From: Opitutia bacterium Tous-C4FEB | GTDB taxonomy: Bacteria; Verrucomicrobiota; Verrucomicrobiia; Opitutales; Opitutaceae | DNA length: 55,641 nucleotides | Direction of reading: 5' to 3' | Assembly: GCA_002304445.1 (NCBI GenBank) | Contig: NEVA01000021.1 | Location: forward strand, 1-55,641 | In this document: positions 44,548-55,322 of the stretch, one piece after another | Layout of the letters: each line of letters starts with the position of its first letter | Numbering within the stretch: position 1 is the first letter of the stretch | The notes under the pieces: model-generated | Database searches by the model: none | What the model was told of the DNA's origin: nothing | What the model saw: only the letters and a program-made list of their open reading frames with translations | Position numbers and translations under genes: made by a program

Positions 44548-46014
44548 ATGTTATCCAACCCCGCCCAAGCCGCCGACCACGCCCCTCACCTCGGCCGCCC
44601 CTGCCACGGTATCTCGACCGATCTCGAGGACTATTTTCTGACCCGCCGCCAGTTCCTCTCCCGCGTCGGCATGGGCGTCGGCGCCCTCGGCCTCGCCTCG
44701 CTCGTCCCTCAATCCCAACTCCTTGGCGCGCCGGCCGCCTCCGCCCTCGCCCTCGGGCCCAGTCCGCTTCTCCCCAAGCCTCCGCATTTCTCCGGCAAGG
44801 CCAAAGCCATCATTCATATCTTCGCCCAAGGTGCCCCTTCGCACCTCGACACGTGGGACCCCAAGCCCGCCCTTTCCCGCCTCAATGGCAAAACTCTCCC
44901 CGATGGCGGCATCGCCATGGGCTCGCCCTTCAAATTTCAGAAATACGGCCGCTCCGGCCTCGAGGTCAGCGACGCCTTTGCCAAGACCGCCGCCCATGCC
45001 GACGACCTCGCCGTCATCCGCTCCATGTGGACCGACATTCCCGCCCACGACGTCGCCACCGTCTTCATGAACACCGGCTCGCTCCGCATCGTGAAGCCCA
45101 GCCTCGGCTCTTGGCTCGTCTACGGCCTTGGCACCGAAAATCAAAATCTCCCCGGCTTCATCGCCCTGCGCGACGGCCGCCTCCCCGTCGGCGGCGTCAC
45201 CAACTACGGCTCCGCCTTCCTCCCCGGCACGTTCCAAGGCGCCTCCGTCAACACCACCGCCGCCAACGTGCAGCAGATGATTCAAAACATCCGCAACAGC
45301 TACGTCGCCCCGAAAGAGCAGCGCCGCCAACTCGACTTCGTCAACCAGCTCAACCAGGTCCACGCCCAAAATCTCCAACGCGAATCCGCCCTAGAGACGC
45401 GCCTCGAATCCTACGAGATCGCCTTCCGGATGCAGACCGAGGCCACCGACGCGTTCGACATCACCAAAGAAACCGAATCCACCCGCGCCGCCTACGGCAC
45501 CAGCCAACAGGGCAAACAACTCCTTATCGCCCGCCGGCTCGTCGAGCGCGGCGTGCGCGTCGTCCAAGTCTGGCACAACGGCTGGGACCATCACCAAGAC
45601 CTCCACGAGAAACTATCCGCCAAGGCCGGTGAGATCGACGGCCCGCTCGCCGCGCTCTTCGCCGACCTCAAACAACGCGGCCTCCTCGACAGCACCCTCG
45701 TCGTTTGGGGCGGCGAGTTCGGCCGCAAGCCCAACAAAGACAAAAACGGCTACGACAACCCCGGCCGCGACCACAACGCCAAGGCCTTCTCCGTCGTGCT
45801 GGCCGGCGGCGGCATCAAGGGCGGCACCGTCCACGGCGCGACCGATGAATTCGGCGCCGCCTCCGTCACCGACAAGGTCCACGTCCACGACCTCCACGCG
45901 ACGATGCTCCACTGCCTCGGCCTCGATCACACCAAGCTCACGTATCGCTTCAACGGCCGCGACTTCCGCCTCACCGACGTCGCCGGCGACGTCGTCAAAA
46001 CCGTCCTCGCCTAG
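44548..46014 (+). CDS. DUF1501 protein, Tat-exported (third copy)
   Basis: The 488-residue protein has a Tat signal (TRRQFLSRVGMGVGALGLAS) after an N-terminal extension of about 30 residues. DUF1501 motifs follow: IFAQGAPSHLDTWDPKPALS, WGGEFGRKPN, GRDHNAKAFSVVLAGGGIKG and VHVHDLHATMLHCLGLDHTK. It differs from the other two copies in the H-N-G-W-D-H-H segment and in gene order, since here DUF1501 precedes the PSD1 gene (14 nt apart). No microrepeat is present in the linker. Confidence 0.93.
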   Translation: MLSNPAQAADHAPHLGRPCHGISTDLEDYFLTRRQFLSRVGMGVGALGLASLVPQSQLLGAPAASALALGPSPLLPKPPHFSGKAKAIIHIFAQGAPSHLDTWDPKPALSRLNGKTLPDGGIAMGSPFKFQKYGRSGLEVSDAFAKTAAHADDLAVIRSMWTDIPAHDVATVFMNTGSLRIVKPSLGSWLVYGLGTENQNLPGFIALRDGRLPVGGVTNYGSAFLPGTFQGASVNTTAANVQQMIQNIRNSYVAPKEQRRQLDFVNQLNQVHAQNLQRESALETRLESYEIAFRMQTEATDAFDITKETESTRAAYGTSQQGKQLLIARRLVERGVRVVQVWHNGWDHHQDLHEKLSAKAGEIDGPLAALFADLKQRGLLDSTLVVWGGEFGRKPNKDKNGYDNPGRDHNAKAFSVVLAGGGIKGGTVHGATDEFGAASVTDKVHVHDLHATMLHCLGLDHTKLTYRFNGRDFRLTDVAGDVVKTVLA

Positions 46015-46028
46015 GCGCCCCGCCCACC

Positions 46029-48605
46029 ATGCGTCCCCTCTCTTTCGCTTTCCTCTTTCTCTTACCCTTTCTCCCCACCGCCCGCGCCCAAGCCGCTGCA
46101 CCCATCGCCGCGCCCGCGGCGATTTCCCACGCCGATCTCCAGTTTTTCGAAAACAAGATCCGCCCCGTCCTCGCCGAAAATTGCTACAAGTGCCACAGCC
46201 ACGATGCCGACCGCGTCAAGGGCGGCCTCTTTCTCGACTCTTCCTCCGCTCTGCTCGCCGGCGGCGACACCGGCCCGGCTATCATCCCCGGCAAACCTGC
46301 GGAGAGCCTTCTCCTCACCGCGATAAGTTACAAAGACGAAGAACTCCAAATGCCCCCCAAGGGCAAAAAACTCACTGACGCGCAAATCGCCGACTTCACC
46401 GAGTGGATCCGCCGCGGCGCCCCCGATCCCCGCGTCCCCACCGCCACCAAGCCCGGTTCCGCCACCGCCGGCTACGGCGGCGTCGGCAAAAAACACTGGG
46501 CGTTCCAGCCCGTAAGCAAGCCCGCCGTCCCCGCCGCCGCCACTCCCGCCGACACCGCGTGGATCAAGAACCCCGTCGATAAATTCATCCTCGCCAAACT
46601 CGCAGACCATGGCCTCAGCCCCAACCCCGCTGCCGATCGCCGCACGTTGATCCGCCGCCTCACCTTCGACCTCACCGGCCTCCCACCCACCGAAGCCGAG
46701 ATCATCGCCTTCGAATCCGATTCGCTCCGTGATTCCGACTCCGCCTACGCCGCCCTCGTCGACCGCCTGCTTGCCTCCCCTGCCTATGGCGAACGCTGGG
46801 GCCGCTACTGGCTCGATGTCGCCCGCTACTCCGACACCAAGGGCGACGCCAAAGGCCGCGAAGACCTGCGCTACGCCAACGCCTGGACTTACCGCGACTA
46901 CGTCATCGATGCCTTCAACCGCGACAAACCCTACAACCAGTTCGTCGTCGAACAACTCGCCGCCGACCGCCTCCTCGCCGAGTCCGTCAAGAAAGCCAAA
47001 GCCAAGAACCCCTCCGCCGAACCGCCCCACGATCAGCGCGTTCTCGCCGCCCTCGGCTTCCTTTCCCTCGGCAATAAATTCGACGGCAATCCCCACGACA
47101 TCATCAACGACCGCATCGACGTCACCTCGAAAGCCTTCCTCGGCCTGACCGCCACCTGCGCCCGTTGCCACGACCACAAGTTCGATCCCATTCCCACCAA
47201 GGACTACTACTCGCTCTACGGCGTCTTCGCCAATGTCACCGAGCCCAAGTTCGCCCGCGATCAGCCCACGCTCTTCGCCAAAGTTCCAAAAACGCCCGAG
47301 CTCATCGACTACCTCGCCAAGTCGGACGAGCTGAAAAAACAGGCCGACCAAGTCGAGGCCGACTACGCCGCTTTCCGCAAATCCCGCTCTCGCGACGCCG
47401 AAAAACGCCGCGAGTTGGTCCGCGCCGAGACCAAGGTTCTCCGCGAGATCGGCGACCTCGATTCCTCCCACCCCGGAGCCCCCGCGCGCGCCCATGTCGT
47501 CTCCGACGTCCCCCGCTCCCGCGACTATCCCGTGCTCATCCGCGGCGAAGCCCAGAATAAAGGCCCCGTCGTCCCCCGCCGTTTCCTCGAAATTCTTTCA
47601 CCCGATCCGAAAAATCGACCCGAGTGGAAAGACGGCAGCGGCCGCCTCCAACTCGCCCTCGCCATTGTCGATCCGAAGAACCCCATGACCGCCCGCGTCC
47701 TCGTAAATCGCATCTGGCAACAACACTTCGGCGCCGGGTTCGTCGCCACCCCCGACGACCTCGGCAACATGTCCTCTCCGCCCACCCATCCCGAACTTCT
47801 CGACTATCTTGCCGCCCGCTTTGTCGAGGACGGCTGGTCCATCAAGAAGCTCCACCGCCTCATCGTGACCAGCGCGACTTATCGCCAAAGCTCGGCCAAC
47901 AATCCCAAGTTCGCCGCGCAGGATCCCAACAACCATTACCTCTGGCGCGCCAATCTCCGCCGCCTCGACTTCGAGCAGCTCCACGATTCCCTCCTAGCGA
48001 TCGCCGGCACCCTCGAGCCCAAGCTCGGCGGCAAATCCATCGGCATGGGCACCGAAGATTTCGCCACCCGCCGCGCCGTCTACACCTACATCGACCGCCG
48101 CAACCCGCCCGAACTCCTCACGCAGTTCGATTTCCCCAGCCCCGATGTTCCCAGCGGCCGCCGCTACGAAACCATCGTTCCCGCCCAAGCGCTCTTCCTC
48201 ATGAACAGCCCTCTCGTCGTCGAGACCGCCCGCAAACTCACGCACCGCCCCGCCTTCGCCGATCTCAAGAGCGACCAAGAACGCGTGACCTCGCTCTATC
48301 TCGCCATCTACCAACGCCCGCCCAGCGAACAGGAAGTTTCACTCGGCGTCCGCTACGTAAAAGCGAACCCCACCGGCAAAGCCCTCGAAGTCCCGCTCGC
48401 CCTCTCCATCGCGAGTACCCAAGAAGCGAAACGCAAGCAACGCATCGCCGACAAAGTCGCCGCCATGGCCGCCAGCAAAAAAGGCGGCACAGACAACCGC
48501 CCCCCCGGCGGCATCGCGATGAACGCGTCTCTGGCCCCCGTCGACGCCTGGACCAAACTCGCCCACGCCCTCTTCCAGACCAACGAAGCGATCTTCCTGA
48601 ACTGA
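46029..48605 (+). CDS. PSD1/PSCyt1/PSCyt2 protein without LamG domain
   Basis: The 858-residue protein has a signal peptide (SFAFLFLLPFLPTARAQA), a PSCyt1 segment with heme motif ENCYKCHSHD near residue 53, DUF1549 with [20 protein letters not shown] and a second heme motif [20 protein letters not shown], then DUF1553 with NPMTARVLVNRIWQQHFGAG and ALFLMNSPLVVETAR. It is about 220 residues shorter than the copy at 17411-20659 because the LamG-like insert is missing, and the R-R[10 protein letters not shown] box is replaced by SGRRYETIVPAQALF. A separate subfamily is likely. Confidence 0.93.
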   Translation: MRPLSFAFLFLLPFLPTARAQAAAPIAAPAAISHADLQFFENKIRPVLAENCYKCHSHDADRVKGGLFLDSSSALLAGGDTGPAIIPGKPAESLLLTAISYKDEELQMPPKGKKLTDAQIADFTEWIRRGAPDPRVPTATKPGSATAGYGGVGKKHWAFQPVSKPAVPAAATPADTAWIKNPVDKFILAKLADHGLSPNPAADRRTLIRRLTFDLTGLPPTEAEIIAFESDSLRDSDSAYAALVDRLLASPAYGERWGRYWLDVARYSDTKGDAKGREDLRYANAWTYRDYVIDAFNRDKPYNQFVVEQLAADRLLAESVKKAKAKNPSAEPPHDQRVLAALGFLSLGNKFDGNPHDIINDRIDVTSKAFLGLTATCARCHDHKFDPIPTKDYYSLYGVFANVTEPKFARDQPTLFAKVPKTPELIDYLAKSDELKKQADQVEADYAAFRKSRSRDAEKRRELVRAETKVLREIGDLDSSHPGAPARAHVVSDVPRSRDYPVLIRGEAQNKGPVVPRRFLEILSPDPKNRPEWKDGSGRLQLALAIVDPKNPMTARVLVNRIWQQHFGAGFVATPDDLGNMSSPPTHPELLDYLAARFVEDGWSIKKLHRLIVTSATYRQSSANNPKFAAQDPNNHYLWRANLRRLDFEQLHDSLLAIAGTLEPKLGGKSIGMGTEDFATRRAVYTYIDRRNPPELLTQFDFPSPDVPSGRRYETIVPAQALFLMNSPLVVETARKLTHRPAFADLKSDQERVTSLYLAIYQRPPSEQEVSLGVRYVKANPTGKALEVPLALSIASTQEAKRKQRIADKVAAMAASKKGGTDNRPPGGIAMNASLAPVDAWTKLAHALFQTNEAIFLN

Positions 48606-48687: not shown

Positions 48688-49521
48688 TCACTTCAACCGC
48701 CGTTGTAGCGCGGCCAACGCCGCTTCCAGCGCCGCCGCCTGCCTCCGCAGCTCCACCACATCGTCACCGAGCCGCGCCTCGCCTGTCGCCGTCAAGTGCC
48801 GCTCGCGGGTGTCGTCTTCCATATCCTGCCGTGCTTCGTCCATGCCGTTCACGATCACGCCGATCAACAAATTCAACGTGATCATCGTCCCCAGCAAAAT
48901 GAACGACACGAAATACGCGATCGATACCGCCGCACCCGCCGGCCCGGCGATCTGCGTGCGCATAATGTCGGCCCAACCCTCCAGCGTGACGACTTGGAAC
49001 AGGGTCAGTGCCGTCGCGCCCAGCGTGCCGAAATGCTCCGGGTCCGTCCGCCCGAAAAGCGACACGCCCAACACGGCATACACGTAAAACAACACGCTCA
49101 ACAGCAGCGCCACGTAGCTCATCGAGGGAATGCTCTTTAGCAACGCGCCCACGAGAATCTGCAACCGCGGCACCGCCGTGATCAAACGCAACACCCGCAG
49201 CACGCGCACCAACCGCAACACCGCCGCAAACTCCGCCTGCACCGGCAGCAAACACACCGCCACAATCACGAAATCAAAGACGTTCCAGCCGTCGGCGAAG
49301 AACTTCCACGGCCGCGTCCCACACGCGCCGATCCGCAGCGCCAGCTCGACCACAAAAAACGCCAACACCACGCGGTCGATCGCATGGAGCACGCCGCCGG
49401 CCCGCGCCATCAACGTCACGCTCGTCTCCAAACCCACGAGCACCCCCGCAAAAAGAATCACGCCCAACACGGCGCGCTGAAACCCTTTCGACTCCACGAT
49501 CTTTCGACTAAACGTTTGCAT
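48688..49521 (-). CDS. Single-domain voltage-gated cation channel (NaChBac/CavMr-like)
   Basis: The 277-residue protein has the six-helix layout of bacterial Nav channels. S1 is AVLGVILFAGVLVG (17-30), S3 is NVFDFVIVAVCLL (80-92), and S4 has four arginines at three-residue spacing (Arg103, 106, 109, 112). The pore helix leads to the selectivity filter TLEGWAD (179-185), S6 reads MITLNLLIGVIVNGM (213-227), and a C-terminal coiled coil (about 254-277) would join four subunits. The filter differs from NaChBac TLESW by Gly for Ser and an added Asp, which points to calcium rather than sodium. It stands alone between convergent and same-strand genes. Confidence 0.9.
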   Translation of the reverse strand: MQTFSRKIVESKGFQRAVLGVILFAGVLVGLETSVTLMARAGGVLHAIDRVVLAFFVVELALRIGACGTRPWKFFADGWNVFDFVIVAVCLLPVQAEFAAVLRLVRVLRVLRLITAVPRLQILVGALLKSIPSMSYVALLLSVLFYVYAVLGVSLFGRTDPEHFGTLGATALTLFQVVTLEGWADIMRTQIAGPAGAAVSIAYFVSFILLGTMITLNLLIGVIVNGMDEARQDMEDDTRERHLTATGEARLGDDVVELRRQAAALEAALAALQRRLK

Positions 49522-49638
49522 GATCCCTAAATTACCCGGCCCAAACCAGCGCCTGCAACCGCGCAGCGGGAGTCCCCGCCATTATTTGCCGCGCGAGGCG
49601 TCTGGCTATAGCACCGACCGGCGGTCGGTCTTCAAAAC

Positions 49639-51177
49639 TCACAGCGCTTCGTAGCCCAGCGTCGCCTCGGGCGGCGTTGGCGGCGGGGGCGTCACCCCGC
49701 GGGCGATCATGATCTCTCTCATCGTCGCGATCGCCTCGAACCCGGGCTTGAAATTCCCAAACCGGTGCCCCTCCGCGATCAGCAGCGGCGTCCAACCCCG
49801 TTTGTTTTTCTGATTCCACACCTCGATCTTGGCGCCTTTGGCGTCCAAAAGTTTCATAACCTTGCAGAAATTCGCGAACGCCGCGCCGTGCATCGCCGTG
49901 TCCCCCGTGGCCGCCACCGCGTTGATGTCGGCCCCGAGCCCGAGCAGATACTCGACGGTCGCGACCGCCTCCTCGTCGGTGCCCGCCTCTTCCTGCACCG
50001 CCCGCGTCCCGAGGCCCGCCGCCGCCATCAGCGGCGTGACCCGGTCCACATTCACCATCGTCGGATCGGCCCCCAGTTCCGCGAGCAACTTCATGTAGGC
50101 AAGGTCTGCCGTATCGGCCGCCATCAAGAAAGGCGCGCTTCCGTTGGCATCAACGCGGCCGCCACCCTTCGGGCCACCGGTCAACCGCAGGTTCACGTCG
50201 GCTCCTTTTGAGACGAGTTTCCGAACGAGTTGTTCATTCGTCATCGCGCCTTTTCCCTCGGGGATCGGATCGCCTTCATCCTCACCGCTCGGCGGCTTCC
50301 GAATCCAGGTGAGAATATGCAGGGGCGCGAAGCCCGAGCGCAGATCGTTGGGGTTGGCGCCAGCATCAAGCAGAAAGCCCGCGAGTTCAAAATGCCCGTT
50401 CTCCACCGCCATCGTCAGCGCGCTGGATCCTTTTCGCGGGTGCTTTCGGGTCAGCTTCATCGTCGGTTCCGTCGCCGCGTTCACATCAACGCCCGCCTTC
50501 AAGAATGCCGACACGATCTCGAGCTGTCCCGCCCGGACCGCGAACAACAGAGGCGTGAACCCCGTGGCCAAGGGCGTCCGAAAATCCGCTCCCGCCGCGA
50601 GCAACGCCTTGACGACCGCCAGATGCCCTTCGGCCGCCGCCCACATCATCGCCGTCTGGCCGTCCGGCAGTTTTGCGTCGCTGCCCGCGCCGCGGGCCAA
50701 CAGCACGTTCACCACCGCCACTTTGCCCGTGCGCGCCGCCGTCATGAGCGGCGTCTCACCGCCGTGAAGCGCCGTGTTCGGATTCGCGCCGTGGGCCAGC
50801 AGCAGTTCCGCAAACTCCGCATTGCCGTTCGTGCAGACGAGCGAGAGCGGCGTCACGCCATAGCGATTTGTAATCTCGGCCGTCGCTCCGGCGGCGAGCA
50901 GAGTTTTCCCGGTCTCAAGATCATCGTGATACGCCGCCCAATGGAGCGCCGTCATGCCGTCAACCTGCGCGACGTTGACGTCGGCCTTCGCCGTTTTGGC
51001 GAGCAGCCCGCGCAGGACCTCGGCGTCTTTTCGCTCGGCAGCGTCGGCGATCGGCGCGGGCGAGGCGCTTGCGTTCGCCCCGCCCAACATCAGGCCGGCA
51101 GCCAAGATCAGGGCGCGCGAGCCTGGCACCAACCGAAGCCGCCTCACCGGCGAAAACGCGTGCCGACCGCCGGTCAT
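49639..51177 (-). CDS. Secreted ankyrin-repeat protein
   Basis: The 512-residue protein has an N-terminal signal (ALILAAGLMLGGANASA) and about ten ankyrin repeats, such as DGMTALHWAAYHDDLETGKT, YGVTPLSLVCTNGNAEFAEL, DGQTAMMWAAAEGHLAVVKA and TGDTAMHGAAFANFCKVMKL. The repeats fill the protein; the C-terminus is proline-rich (TPPPPTPPEA). Its start overlaps the DUF1552 stop by ATGA, so it is the last gene of a coupled operon DUF1592, DUF1552, ankyrin. It probably binds the two partner proteins outside the membrane; that role is inferred. Confidence 0.9.
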   Translation of the reverse strand: MTGGRHAFSPVRRLRLVPGSRALILAAGLMLGGANASASPAPIADAAERKDAEVLRGLLAKTAKADVNVAQVDGMTALHWAAYHDDLETGKTLLAAGATAEITNRYGVTPLSLVCTNGNAEFAELLLAHGANPNTALHGGETPLMTAARTGKVAVVNVLLARGAGSDAKLPDGQTAMMWAAAEGHLAVVKALLAAGADFRTPLATGFTPLLFAVRAGQLEIVSAFLKAGVDVNAATEPTMKLTRKHPRKGSSALTMAVENGHFELAGFLLDAGANPNDLRSGFAPLHILTWIRKPPSGEDEGDPIPEGKGAMTNEQLVRKLVSKGADVNLRLTGGPKGGGRVDANGSAPFLMAADTADLAYMKLLAELGADPTMVNVDRVTPLMAAAGLGTRAVQEEAGTDEEAVATVEYLLGLGADINAVAATGDTAMHGAAFANFCKVMKLLDAKGAKIEVWNQKNKRGWTPLLIAEGHRFGNFKPGFEAIATMREIMIARGVTPPPPTPPEATLGYEAL

Positions 51178-52526
51178 ACCGAGAGCGGTTGAAAAATCTC
51201 GTCCATCTTGCCGCTGCTGTCGCCGAAGCGGTCCAACTTCACCCCGACTTTGTCGAGGAGCGAGAGGTGGAGATTGGCGAGCGGCGTGGGCTCTTTGTAA
51301 CGGATGTGTCGGCCGCCCTTCATCCCGCCGGCCGCACCGCCCGCGACGAGCACGGGGAGATTCGTGTGATCGTGGACGTTCGGATTGCCGATGCCGCTGC
51401 CGTAGAGCAGGAGCGAGTGATCGAGCAGCGTGCCGTTGCCTTCGGGCGTGGCCTTGAGGCGTTCGAGGAAGTAGGCAAAAAGCGACACGTGAAACGCGTT
51501 GATCTTGGCCATGCGCGCAACCTTCTCCGGGTCGTTTCCGTGGTGGGAAAGCGGATGGTGCGGATCGGCGACGCCCGTCTCGGCGACATAGGTGCGATTG
51601 CTGGTCTCACGGGCGAGTTGAAAGGTCGTGACCCGCGTGATGTCGCCCTGCATCGCAAGCACCTGGAGATCGAACATCAGCCGCGCATGGTCGGCATACG
51701 AGGCCGGTACGCCCAGCGGCCGGTCCAGATCGGCCGGGAGATTGTTTTTCGCGACATCCGTCTCCGCCTTCTGGATGCGGCGTTCCACCTCGCGCACGGT
51801 GTCGAGATACTCGGCGATCTTGGCCCGATCAGCCGGCCCCAGATTCCGGCGCAGGCTCGCGATATCCTCGGTGATCCAGTCGAGCAGACTCGCCCGCTTG
51901 CGCAACGCCGCTTGGCGCTCGGCCAGCGAGCCGCCTTCGCCGAAGAGCCGTTCAAACACGATGCGCGGGTGCGCCTCCGAGGGCAGCGGCGTCGTCGGCG
52001 AGGACCACGAGAGATTGTTTTGGTAGACGCAGGCGTAGCCGTTGTCGCACTGGCCGGTCGTCTGCAGCATGTCCATCGAGAGCTCGAGGGACGGGAGCTG
52101 GGTCGCGTGCCCGATCTGCTGCGCGGCGATTTGGTCGGCGGTCGTGCCAAGATAGTAGTCGGAGCTTTCGGTGTGCTTCGCCTTGGCTGCGCTCAGAAAG
52201 GCCGCGTTCGAGGTCGCGTGGGAGCCGGGGTAGGCTGTGCGCAGCTCGAGGTTTGTAATCGCCGTGACGTGGCTCTTCACGCTTTCGAGCGATTTCAGAA
52301 TCGGTGACAGCTCGCCGAGTTTCCCATCGGTGCCGCCGGGCGTCCATCGGCCGATATCGCAGCCCATCGGCATAAAAATGTAGCCGAGCCGCTTCACCGG
52401 CAGGGCCGCCGTCGCGGACGCGGCGGTGGCGGCAGGAATCATCGCATCGAGCAACGGTAGCGCCAAGGAGGCGCCCATTCCGCGCAAAAACGTCCGACGG
52501 GGCAGGGCTTTTTTTGTAATGATCAT
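51174..52526 (-). CDS. DUF1552 protein, Tat-exported
   Basis: The 450-residue protein opens with a Tat signal (LPRRTFLRGMGASLALPLLD, residues 8-27) and has the DUF1552 features PVKRLGYIFMPMGCDIGRWT, ERLFGEGGSLAERQAALRKR and LLLYGSGIGNPNVHDHTNLP, then a C-terminal TPLANLHLSLLDKVGV. Function is unknown; the C-terminal H-D-H and G-S-G segments recall the DUF1501 fold. It is coupled by ATGA overlaps to both neighbours. Confidence 0.92.
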   Translation of the reverse strand: MIITKKALPRRTFLRGMGASLALPLLDAMIPAATAASATAALPVKRLGYIFMPMGCDIGRWTPGGTDGKLGELSPILKSLESVKSHVTAITNLELRTAYPGSHATSNAAFLSAAKAKHTESSDYYLGTTADQIAAQQIGHATQLPSLELSMDMLQTTGQCDNGYACVYQNNLSWSSPTTPLPSEAHPRIVFERLFGEGGSLAERQAALRKRASLLDWITEDIASLRRNLGPADRAKIAEYLDTVREVERRIQKAETDVAKNNLPADLDRPLGVPASYADHARLMFDLQVLAMQGDITRVTTFQLARETSNRTYVAETGVADPHHPLSHHGNDPEKVARMAKINAFHVSLFAYFLERLKATPEGNGTLLDHSLLLYGSGIGNPNVHDHTNLPVLVAGGAAGGMKGGRHIRYKEPTPLANLHLSLLDKVGVKLDRFGDSSGKMDEIFQPLSV

Positions 52527-54913
52527 GGGGTCTTCCTCATCTGAAACGGGGTGCTGGTCACGATACCGAGAATCAAAGCGGAGAAACGAAAATCCTCCGC
52601 GCTGGCCCGACGGACTATTTGCCGAATCGCCGGCGCGTCAAACGGCTCGACGCCGCGGCCCAGCGCGTAAATCAGGAGCTTTTCCGTCAAAGCGCCCGCG
52701 AAATGCTCCGGGCGTTGCAACAGGGCGCGCTCAAGTGCGGCGACGCCGACAAACGTGCTGCCGTCCGCCAAACCGCCCGAGGCATCGACCGGCTGACCGC
52801 CCTCCGCCGACCGCCAGCGTCCCACCGCGTCGAAGTTTTCCAGCGAGAAACCGACCGGGTCGATCACGTCGTGGCAGCTCGCGCACACGGGATTCGCGCG
52901 GTGGGCCGCGAGCCGGGCCCGCATCGGCAAAAAGGATGAGACGGTGTTGTCTTCCAGCGTCGGAATATCGGGCGGCGCCGGCGGTGGCGGCTCCCCCACG
53001 ATGTTTTCCAAAACCCAATGCCCGCGGATCGTCGGCGAGGTGCGCGTCGCGTAGGAGGTCACGGTCAAAATACTCCCATGCCGCAGCAAGCCGCCGCGCG
53101 GCCGCTCCGGCTCACCCGCAAACGACACCCGCCGGAAGCGGGGACCATAGATGTGCGGGATGCCGTAGTGTTTCGCGAGGCGCTCGTTGAGGAACGTGTA
53201 ATCCGCGCTGAGCAAGTCGGTGACACTGCGGTCTTCGCGCAGGATGCTTTCGAAAAAAAGTTCCGTCTCTTGGCGCAGGGCCTGGCGCAAGTTGTCGTCG
53301 AAGTCGGGGAACAACCGCAGATCGGGCGTGGCCGCTTCGAGCTTGCGCAGATACAACCACTGGCTCGCAAAATTCGTCACCAAACTGCCCGAGCGGCCGT
53401 CGGCCAGCATCCGGCGCACTTGCGCCTCCAACAGCTTCGGTTGCCGCAGGTCGCCCCGCACCGCTGCCGCGATCAATTCATCGTCGGGCAGACTGCTCCA
53501 GATGAAGAACGCCAGCCGAGACGCCAGTTCGAGGTCGCTGACCCGGTAAACTGAACCCGCCGCGAGCCCGACCGGGTCCTCTTCGACGCGGATCAAAAAT
53601 CGCGGACTCACCAAGACTGCCGTCAGAGCGCCCTCGATCCCGGCTTCGAAGCCGTTTTCATCCCGCGCCTCGCGGAAGAACTGCAGGGGTTTGCGCAAAT
53701 CGTCCTCCGTGACCGGCCGGCGATAGGCGCGGCGGATCAGGGGCGTCAAAATCTCGCGGGCGCGTGCATCCTGCTCGGCCACCGTCGCGGCCGCCGCGAG
53801 CGGTTTCGCGTCGCCGAAAATCGCGCGCCGACTCTCCGACTCGCCCGGCCCTTTCGCGTCAAACGGACCCGTGATCGTCACCTGAAAAAGCGCCGGTGCC
53901 GTGCGCGGGTGCCGGTGCATGTTAAACCGCGCCAAAAACGGCAGCCGCTCCGTCTCAATCAGCGCCGAGGGATTCTTGATAAACGTCACCCCCACGTCAC
54001 GAGCGCCCGCCTTTACCGGCACCCGAAATTTGAGATGCGCATCCACGCCCTCCGCGTTCTTGTCGCTCCCGGTCGGCTTGACCGTAAAGAGCCTCACGCG
54101 CTCCCGATCGATCAACACCTCGACTTCGTGCGGCTTGCGCAGCCCTTCCACCTGCTCGTTCCGGTCACGCTGGAGTCGGATCTGAATCTCATAGTCCCCG
54201 TCCTGGGGAAAGACATAGGGAATGAGCGTCCCGCCGCGCGTGCCCGGCGGCAGCCCCGCGATGCGCTCTTCCTGCGTCAGATCCGCCCGCACGCGAAAGG
54301 TGTCTCCGCCCGGCACCTTGCGCGGCGTTCCGATCGCCAGCCGCGCGATCTTTTGCGCCGCCGAGACGTAGCGATCCAGCAGCGTCGGAGAGAGATTCCC
54401 AACGGTGACGTTGTCGAAACCGTGACTCGGCTCGTCGTTCGGCAGCAACGTGGTCGCATCGATTTCGAGCGCGAGCAGATCGCGGACGGCGTTCTGATAC
54501 TCCGTGCGGTTCAACCGGCGAAACGTGTCCGTGCGCCCGGGATTAGGCGCGGCGGCGGCAGCCAGATCGAGCGAACGCTCCAACTCCGCCACGACCCGCT
54601 GGTAACTCTCCGCATCCGGCCGTTCGTCGGCGATCGGCGGCATCTGCCGATGGTCGAGCTTGCGCAAGACCTTCTCCCAGACCGCCGGATTCGTCGCCGG
54701 ATTTTTCGCATCTAAACCCTCCAGCGAAAACTTGCCCTTCCGAATCCCGTCGTCGTGGCAATCGAGGCAAAACCCTTGGATCAACGTTTCAGTCGGATGC
54801 GTCGCCGCGCCGCTGTTCTGCGCGAAGCCTGCTGACACCCCGCTCCACGCCACGCCGCCGAGCACGACGAAGCGCGATAAACCAAACCAAGGAGTCACGG
54901 CAAACTGGGGCAT
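52523..54913 (-). CDS. DUF1592 multidomain heme-motif protein
   Basis: The 796-residue protein has a signal peptide (FVVLGGVAWSGVSAGFAQ) and then a cytochrome-like CLDCHDDG near residue 46. The domains in order are DUF1587 (FRRLNRTEYQNAVRDLLALE), DUF1595 (ILTPLIRRAYRRPVTEDDLR), DUF1592 (VSDLELASRLAFFIWSSLPD), DUF1588 (RRGGLLRHGSILTVTSYATR, then CASCHDVIDPVGFSLENF with a second heme motif) and DUF1585 (LTEKLLIYALGRGVEPFD). The ATG at 54913 gives the signal peptide; an ATG at 55027 does not. It heads a three-gene operon. The role is unproven; the CxxCH motifs suggest redox activity. Confidence 0.92.
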   Translation of the reverse strand: MPQFAVTPWFGLSRFVVLGGVAWSGVSAGFAQNSGAATHPTETLIQGFCLDCHDDGIRKGKFSLEGLDAKNPATNPAVWEKVLRKLDHRQMPPIADERPDAESYQRVVAELERSLDLAAAAAPNPGRTDTFRRLNRTEYQNAVRDLLALEIDATTLLPNDEPSHGFDNVTVGNLSPTLLDRYVSAAQKIARLAIGTPRKVPGGDTFRVRADLTQEERIAGLPPGTRGGTLIPYVFPQDGDYEIQIRLQRDRNEQVEGLRKPHEVEVLIDRERVRLFTVKPTGSDKNAEGVDAHLKFRVPVKAGARDVGVTFIKNPSALIETERLPFLARFNMHRHPRTAPALFQVTITGPFDAKGPGESESRRAIFGDAKPLAAAATVAEQDARAREILTPLIRRAYRRPVTEDDLRKPLQFFREARDENGFEAGIEGALTAVLVSPRFLIRVEEDPVGLAAGSVYRVSDLELASRLAFFIWSSLPDDELIAAAVRGDLRQPKLLEAQVRRMLADGRSGSLVTNFASQWLYLRKLEAATPDLRLFPDFDDNLRQALRQETELFFESILREDRSVTDLLSADYTFLNERLAKHYGIPHIYGPRFRRVSFAGEPERPRGGLLRHGSILTVTSYATRTSPTIRGHWVLENIVGEPPPPAPPDIPTLEDNTVSSFLPMRARLAAHRANPVCASCHDVIDPVGFSLENFDAVGRWRSAEGGQPVDASGGLADGSTFVGVAALERALLQRPEHFAGALTEKLLIYALGRGVEPFDAPAIRQIVRRASAEDFRFSALILGIVTSTPFQMRKTP

Positions 54914-54943
54914 GGGAGCGGGGTAACGGGGTCCGAAAGGAAA

Positions 54944-54972
54944 ACGATACGGGAACAGACGGTCTCTTTCAA
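54944..54972 (-). promoter_or_regulatory. Candidate promoter of the DUF1592-DUF1552-ankyrin operon
   Basis: On the minus strand TTGAAA (54967-54972) and TATCGT (54944-54949) are separated by 17 nt, a sigma-70-like arrangement. Transcription would start about 25 nt before the ATG. The match is five of six at -35 and four of six at -10, so it is only a candidate. Confidence 0.35.
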
Positions 54973-55322
54973 AATTCGGTTCGGAGAAAATAACAAAATT
55001 TTCCACCGCCAGCGTGGTATGACCCAACCCGCCTCACCCCCACCACGAATGCCCGCGTCCGTTCGCCGGCAGGCCGGAATCGACTGGAGCAGGCGGGATC
55101 CGCCCGGCGAAAGCCGACGTCAAAACCGGGTAACGCTTTCGATTCTCCGACCTCAACCTCGGCCAACCCCATCCGTCGCGATCGCCGCGCGCCGCCCGCC
55201 CAACCGAATCGGCGCCAACAATCGCCTCCGTGGCCGCCACAAACTGCCACCCATCACCAAAACTCCAAAGTGAGGTTGCCCCCGGTTTGAGGGACACGAG
55301 TTGGGTCCAAAGAAAGGACTAA
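54973..55322. other. Intergenic region before the IS3 remnant
   Basis: About 350 nt between the operon promoter and the insertion-sequence end contain no gene that I recognise. Short frames on both strands look like GC-rich noise. Confidence 0.5.

Follow-up and report, generated by a model that had tools for sequence, protein, structure and literature searches.

The 55,641-nucleotide stretch of DNA analyzed here, referred to as the window, contains on its reverse strand a gene for a voltage-gated cation channel (48688..49521, -) whose selectivity filter recalls that of CavMr, the calcium channel of Meiothermus ruber, and the question raised by this locus is whether a member of the Opitutaceae has a calcium channel of its own. 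The gene is intact, with an ATG start and 277 codons, and its 277-residue product was identified as one S1-S6 domain from Pfam, an AlphaFold2 model and matches in the PDB. Pfam Ion_trans (PF00520) spans residues 14-233 (E 1e-46, 159.5 bits), and the protein is the sole PF00520 match of its genome (3.76 Mb, 39 contigs); NCBIfam returned no family for it at E 0.001. Searches of the phylum and the family gave 51 homologue rows, of which the full-length ones at 95% and 84-85% identity share the filter TLEGWAD. The AlphaFold2 monomer model (40-row alignment; mean pLDDT 84.4, pTM 0.60) is uninformative on filter geometry, but its predicted helix order fits S1-S6, with P1 and P2 on either side of the filter; S6 is long, and a helix at 251-276 makes up the tail. 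When this model was compared with the PDB using Foldseek, NavMs, CavAb, NavAb and NaChBac were among the top matches (identity about 34-45%). The best PDB match of the pore domain (S5-P1-filter-P2-S6, residues 131-224; 48850..49131, -) was the T-type channel Cav3.1. The S4 voltage sensor (residues 98-116; 49174..49230, -) has arginines at every third residue, R103, R106, R109 and R112, all invariant across 10 near channels; the first three are also invariant in 40 more diverse channels, from whose 90% list R112 is missing. At the C-terminus, the heptad score of the tail (residues 249-277; 48691..48777, -) was matched by 11 of 20,000 shuffles, and the same residues are modelled as helix with a mean pLDDT of 83-93 per block, consistent with a coiled coil. 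Members of the BacNav superfamily combine one Ion_trans domain and S1-S6 with regularly spaced arginines in S4 and a coiled coil in the tail, and the channel has all of these features.

The filter itself, TLEGWAD, occupies residues 179-185 (48967..48987, -), its codons running from 48987 down to 48967, and Gly182, at filter position 4, is encoded by 48978-48976. Like CavMr-type channels it has glycine at position 4 (Gly4) and aspartate at position 7 (Asp7), and it has Ala184 at position 6 in place of CavMr's valine. The first-pass annotation had reported this filter together with the four arginines of S4 and the coiled coil of the tail, all of which were borne out, and the facts on CavMr that it had given (a native prokaryotic calcium channel with the filter TLEGWVD, in which the glycine is decisive) agree with the text of PMC7041947 that we covered. 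According to that text the CavMr filter is 183-TLEGWVD-189 with a PCa/PNa of 218, and the mutants G4D, G4S, V6T and D7M have values of 7.7, 11.9, 40 and 144, respectively, with a PK/PNa of 0.69 for V6T. NavPp, with Asp4 and Thr6, is described there as sodium-selective and calcium-blocked (PCa/PNa 0.31), reaching 215 when given the CavMr filter (NavPp-Mr) and 41, with a PK/PNa of 0.81, as D4G. It has been argued from these CavMr and NavPp mutants that Gly4 widens the filter mouth, and the covered part of PMC10120453 likewise ties glycine at the "beacon" position to calcium selectivity in one-domain channels. NavAb behaves differently in the covered part of PMC12919392: its S178G mutant, which has TLEGW, remains Li/Na selective with PCa/PNa < 0.01; its M181A mutants are nonselective with an approximately 10-fold preference for calcium, and Met181 helps to exclude Ca2+. 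Since a glycine did not make NavAb calcium-selective, the scaffold must cooperate with Gly4, and since V6T cut the selectivity of CavMr about five-fold (218 to 40), position 6 matters as well.

Our best reading is that the gene encodes a Ca2+-preferring, homotetrameric, voltage-gated channel of the AnclNav type, to which we give a probability of roughly 65%. The calcium preference is one that we infer by transfer from the CavMr and NavPp mutants; in its favor, the filter differs from CavMr's TLEGWVD at position 6 only, and by those published mutants Gly4 would confer calcium selectivity in an AnclNav scaffold. In such a channel four subunits, joined by the C-terminal coiled coil, would make one pore; depolarization would shift the four-arginine S4 helices so that S6 opens; a ring of Glu181 side chains in the filter would bind the cation; and Gly182, standing where other channels have Asp or Ser, would widen the filter mouth, letting Ca2+ through to the exclusion of monovalent ions. 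Speaking against a calcium preference are Ala6 and a short loop between the filter and S6 (L6) that has no cysteine, both of which are unlike CavMr.

To place the channel among its relatives, 29 duplicates were removed from 209 channels, leaving 180 distinct sequences, and after removal of two short rows a quick tree of 178 was calculated. A careful tree of 130 rows, from which the filter and L6 columns were excluded, was obtained by dropping 50 of the 180 (22 that were odd, incomplete or on long branches, 18 canonical-side rows in surplus and 10 near-identical rows, with 18 of the 67 Gly4 rows among the 50); its bootstrap was still unsettled, at a correlation of 0.983. CavMr, NavPp and NaChBac are not among the rows of the trees, and L134 from Enhygromyxa salina, of NavPp's family Nannocystaceae, stands in for NavPp. 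In the careful tree 122 channels including that of the window are split with support of 100/100 from eight canonical-side outgroup rows (six with TLESWSMG, one with TLENWADG and one with TVEGWPD). The channel thus lies apart from the TLESWSM channels and on the ancestor-like AnclNav side with the NavPp-type TLEDWTD channels. This placement bears on the possibility that the protein is a sodium-selective channel whose filter merely looks like that of CavMr, as NavAb S178G would suggest. The L6 loop of the window channel is in keeping with that possibility, since at 17 residues (186-202; 48916..48966, -) it is closer in length to the 14-residue loops of TLESWSM channels than to the loops of 24-42 residues in most AnclNavs. 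However, the scaffold is that of the AnclNav side, position 7 is Asp rather than the Ca2+-excluding Met181 of NavAb, and both Gly4-bearing NavPp mutants became calcium-selective in the data covered, so we consider a sodium-selective channel improbable. As for the first-pass conclusion that a functional calcium channel was "likely", the 100/100 split and the Gly4 mutants speak for it and NavAb S178G, Ala6 and the short L6 against it; the wording "candidate" calcium channel is fair, and "likely" is something that one has to infer.

The short, cysteine-free L6 is a property of the lineage, being found at 17 residues in all 17 rows of the window clade in the quick tree. The extended L6 with a disulfide reported for CavMr (PMC10120453, in the part covered) has no counterpart in the window channel, which lacks the Cys pair; at least two cysteines in L6 were counted in 45 of the 122 AnclNav-side rows of the careful tree. 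Such a Cys pair was considered as a marker of Gly4 channels and rejected, because it occurs in 11 of the 48 Gly4 rows as against 34 of the 74 remaining rows, with a median p of 1 in the pairs test. The combination of Ala6 with a short L6 gives rise to another interpretation, namely that Gly4 opens the filter mouth but the channel is poorly selective and lets Na+, K+ and Ca2+ through. This would be in line with the behavior of CavMr V6T and NavPp-D4G, which have PCa/PNa of 40 and 41 and the PK/PNa values given above, and with the nonselective NavAb M181A mutants. Against it, Ala, Val or Ile is present at position 6 in 30 of the 48 Gly4 rows, while Thr occupies that position in 63 of the 74 non-Gly4 AnclNavs, and this co-occurrence with Gly4 suggests that Ala, Val and Ile at position 6 make up one filter type. 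The counterpoint has its own weakness in that Thr6 is also found in 16 of the 48 Gly4 rows, and the excess of residues other than Thr at position 6 (32/48 Gly4 rows versus 11/74 others) reduces to six independent pairs with a median p of 0.125, for which reason we do not claim an association between Gly4 and non-Thr6. On balance we regard a poorly selective, Ca2+-permeable channel as unlikely, at clearly longer odds than the calcium-preferring channel that we favor.

Within the careful tree the window channel belongs to a clade of 14 rows, all with Gly4, that has support of 97/87, consists of 13 Opitutaceae and one Verrucomicrobia sequence, and is sister to the other 108 AnclNavs (97/92). In the quick tree the clade comprises 17 rows with support of 99, without resolution of its position as sister to all AnclNavs; given this and the long outgroup branch, the separateness of the clade is the firmer conclusion and its position as sister to the rest the less firm one. 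The clade joins no other Gly4 set, and the window lineage, in the aligned sequences, stands apart from the other Gly4 channels. Forcing all 48 Gly4 rows into one clade cost 274.6 log units and was rejected (p-AU 6.7e-56), and forcing the window clade together with four TLEGWV[DE] Cys-loop channels, a grouping that was picked after the tree was seen, cost 54.6 (p-AU 0.035). The first-pass annotation had named as grounds against its proposal a tree that would place the channel far from CavMr with a coincidental filter; this has come about in part, as the Gly4 channels are not monophyletic, in a tree from which CavMr itself is absent.

Over the 122 rows there are at least 13 changes between Gly4 and other residues, with at least four for TLEGWV[DE] and at least three for TLEGWAD, and counting well-supported branches alone there are six independent pairs that differ at position 4. 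A simple Mk reconstruction placed nine Asp-to-Gly branches outside the window clade under both of two models, including the branches that lead to L115, L117/L138 and L118; all of these have the TLEGWV of CavMr, and L115, L117 and L138 are Cys-loop channels. As one clade of all Gly4 rows is rejected and nine Asp-to-Gly changes lie elsewhere, the likeness of the window channel to other Gly4 channels is probably not a matter of simple shared descent. The same reconstruction gave Gly at the AnclNav root with a probability of 0.92 under equal rates and of 0.76 when the Gly/Asp rates were left free, values that hang on the long outgroup branch. As the root favors Gly, a gain of Gly4 in the window clade is not demonstrable, and if Gly is original then some Gly4 channels retained the residue rather than regaining it; we therefore dropped the notion that Gly4 is convergent everywhere. 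Gly4 was thus gained several times elsewhere and may be old in the window clade, the latter depending on the rooting. The odds that we give for a calcium preference are independent of the root state. A glycine at the AnclNav root, with its long outgroup branch, would also be at odds with the view of TLE(D/S)WTD as the ancestral filter.

Position 4 is variable among the 180 distinct channels (75 Asp, 67 Gly, 22 Ser, 10 Asn and six others), and much of this diversity is present in the Opitutaceae, where the filters include TLEGWAD (the window channel and its near kin), TLEGWVD, TMEGWTD, TMEGWTE, TMEGWND, TMEGWNE, TLDGWAD, TLEDWTD, TLDNWGD, TLDNWSE and TLESWSM. In the window clade, TLEGWVD, which occurs in the sister rows L035, L036, L039, L041 and L042, is identical to the filter of CavMr and to domain I of Cav3.1 and Cav3.2, and TMEGWTD matches domain I of Cav1.2 at every letter. 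Gly4 filters (TLEGWAD, TVEGWPD and TLEGWVE) were also seen in four channels with a 14-residue L6, L183, L190, L209 and L168; in the quick tree L183 and L209 lie with the canonical channels and L168 has no firm placement, and L190 was too short and was excluded. In view of NavAb S178G, these four could show whether Gly4 has its effect outside the AnclNav scaffold. In addition, three Opitutaceae genomes (G483, G484 and G411) have two channel matches each, a Gly4 or Asn4 AnclNav and another with a NavAb-like score; in G484 the latter has an internal stop.

A match to the channel at E 0.001 or better was present in 67 of 387 genomes of the phylum, many of the matches being weak and probably to other kinds of channel, and in sets that overlap with the phylum set 45 of the 252 family genomes (E 1e-12) and two of the 13 genus genomes had one. 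Since so few family and genus genomes carry a channel, its role must be dispensable. Four other phyla, reached via named loci, gave 5/64 and 29/235 genomes at 1e-15 and 26/345 and 15/199 at 1e-30. The scan of named genomes took the best 80 of 187 relatives, ranked by their likeness to the window channel, so that its filter counts lean to window-like channels. This patchiness, and a gene neighborhood that differs from those of the relatives at 84-85% identity, would be expected of a gene that was acquired horizontally as a passenger without physiological role, or whose product is non-conducting despite looking intact. However, third positions hold 40 of 61, 111 of 175, 113 of 178 and 130 of 233 codon differences from four near relatives, and as codon changes are concentrated there the protein is under selection. 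Moreover, Gly182, Trp183 and Asp185 are, like the four S4 arginines, invariant in the 10 near channels. We consider a non-conducting or passenger gene very improbable. A viral origin was also entertained and rejected, since 82 pattern-matching stretches in viral contigs included none encoding a relative. Phage records had one weak match (31% identity over 79%), and 39 plasmid records matched, all at < 60% identity.

In the genome of the window a candidate Ca2+ exporter is encoded by a single ORF containing two repeats of PF01699 (Ca2+/cation antiporter), and there is no match to PF03116 (Nqr/Rnf). Together with two TerC genes this fits a Ca2+ rather than a Na+ economy, without being proof of one, and in a bacterium lacking a match to these sodium pumps the channel would act as a route of Ca2+ entry. 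Among the channel-bearing genomes of the family, PF03116 was found in none of 16 with Gly4, none of seven with Asn4, two of four with Asp4 and four of 13 others, where the filter was read in three of the 13 (TLESWSM) and the remaining 10 were deemed canonical by score alone. The resulting difference of 0/23 versus 6/17 has a Fisher p of 0.003, which ignores kinship and genome incompleteness, and the link between filter type and sodium pump is suggestive only. PF01699 does not follow the filter, being absent in several Gly4 genomes, some of them incomplete, including the same-genus G584.

The neighbors of the channel gene in the window are an ankyrin-repeat protein gene directly upstream (49639..51177, -) and, flanking the pair, Planctomycete-type gene sets of DUF1501 with PSCyt/PSD1 and DUF1552 with PSD2/3/4/5 domains (44548-48605, +; 51174-55027, -). 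Of the 80 loci compared, several with truncated flanks, only the same-genus locus L056 showed matches to the ankyrin gene and to the PSD/DUF genes beside its channel. An operon with a Ca2+ gene was considered and rejected: the neighbors (ankyrin, DUF1501/PSD1, DUF1552/PSD4) give no clue to function, and no Ca2+-handling gene adjoins the channel within the window. The 117-bp gap between the ankyrin and channel genes contains a perfect 8-bp inverted repeat with a 1-nt spacer (49613..49629), possibly a regulatory site or hairpin. Four near relatives (L003, L033, L034 and L045) have a gene for a protein of 310-343 aa on the same strand as the channel and 12-95 bp upstream of it, and a TerB/DUF533 domain was read in two of these four loci. 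Homologues of this gene in the Gly4 genomes G480 and G485 are on a different contig from the channel; the window channel has no such gene alongside, and its genome holds only a 37-residue match elsewhere.

Twenty-two of the 180 loci, spread over several phyla and channel clades, have a TerC gene no more than 700 bp from the channel (flanks inspected were mostly 1.5 kb, and up to 5 kb in named-genome loci); it is on the same strand in 19 of the 22 and separated from the channel ORF by 1-16 bp in 11. These loci belong to the Verrucomicrobiota TLD[ND]W clade (L006, L008, L010, L011, L046, L048, L049 and L050), to Bacteroidota with TLEGWTD (L084, L086, L087, L091, L093-L095, L097, L122 and L129) and to four further cases (L072, L168, L169 and L212). 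The adjacency requires at least eight state changes on the tree and is seen in one of the 75 Asp4 loci (TLDDWRN). In all seven Asn4 genomes of the family TerC adjoins the channel or is separated from it by a single gene, and 105 TerC matches were counted in 51 family genomes, an average of about two. The window clade has no TerC beside the channel, and the two TerC genes of the window genome are on other contigs. The TerC family has Mn2+ efflux members (PMC10550928) and its superfamily includes Ca2+/H+ antiporters (PMC4608589), as stated in the portions of those papers covered, and the pairing suggests a divalent-cation circuit with entry through the channel and exit through TerC. By title, none of the papers among the matches listed dealt with a pairing of TerC and a voltage-gated channel in bacteria.

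The channel is a good candidate for a Cav from a known family. CavMr is called the sole identified prokaryotic Cav in the covered part of a 2026 paper (PMC12919392), and AnclNavs occur in several phyla and in archaea, two of four expressed having given detectable currents (PMC7041947, eLife, in the text covered). In a search of openly available article text, we found no report on Verrucomicrobiota channels. We propose tentatively, at somewhat less than even odds, that calcium selectivity arose repeatedly through one filter residue on the AnclNav scaffold, with the window clade as a separate case that either gained Gly4 on its own or kept an original one. If so, the window clade would be a second lineage of native bacterial Cavs and would offer a minimal model for the filters of their animal counterparts, and an ancestral BacNav filter with Asp or Ser at position 4 would be called into question. 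A second lineage that shares the glycine but has another loop and another residue at position 6 would allow the role of the glycine to be told from that of the scaffold. The filters of the clade, formed without an L6 disulfide, are identical or nearly so to domain I of T-type (TLEGWVD, TLEGWAD) and L-type (TMEGWTD) channels, and the series found in one family, TLEGWAD, TLEGWVD, TMEGWTD, TLDNWGD, TLEDWTD and TLESWSM, is a ready test set for the exchange of Ca2+ and Na+ selectivity. The finding also bears on why bacteria possess voltage-gated Ca2+ entry.

Of the known systems, CavMr (ZP_04038264), itself an AnclNav, shares with the window channel the single-domain plan and TLEGW-x-D with Gly4 and Asp7, and differs in having Val6 rather than Ala6 and, as reported in the text covered, an extended disulfide-bearing L6 rather than 17 residues without Cys. 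NavPp (Plesiocystis pacifica, ZP_01909854), likewise an AnclNav, is represented on the same side of the tree by NavPp-type TLEDWTD channels such as L134, which is about 50% identical to the window channel and has an L6 of 34 aa with two Cys; with Asp4/Thr6 NavPp is described as sodium-selective and calcium-blocked, whereas the window channel has Gly4/Ala6. The canonical BacNavs with TLESW (NaChBac, NP_242367; NavAb; and NavMs) share its fold at about 34-45% identity but have Ser4 in place of Gly4 and Met or Ser in place of Asp7, and TLESWSM-side rows split off at 100/100. Animal Cav3 channels have four unequal domains, the other domains' filters being different in the alignments, yet over the stretch FQV[VI]TLEGW[AV]DIM domain I of Cav3.1 and Cav3.2 matches the window channel except for the exchanges V/I and A/V.
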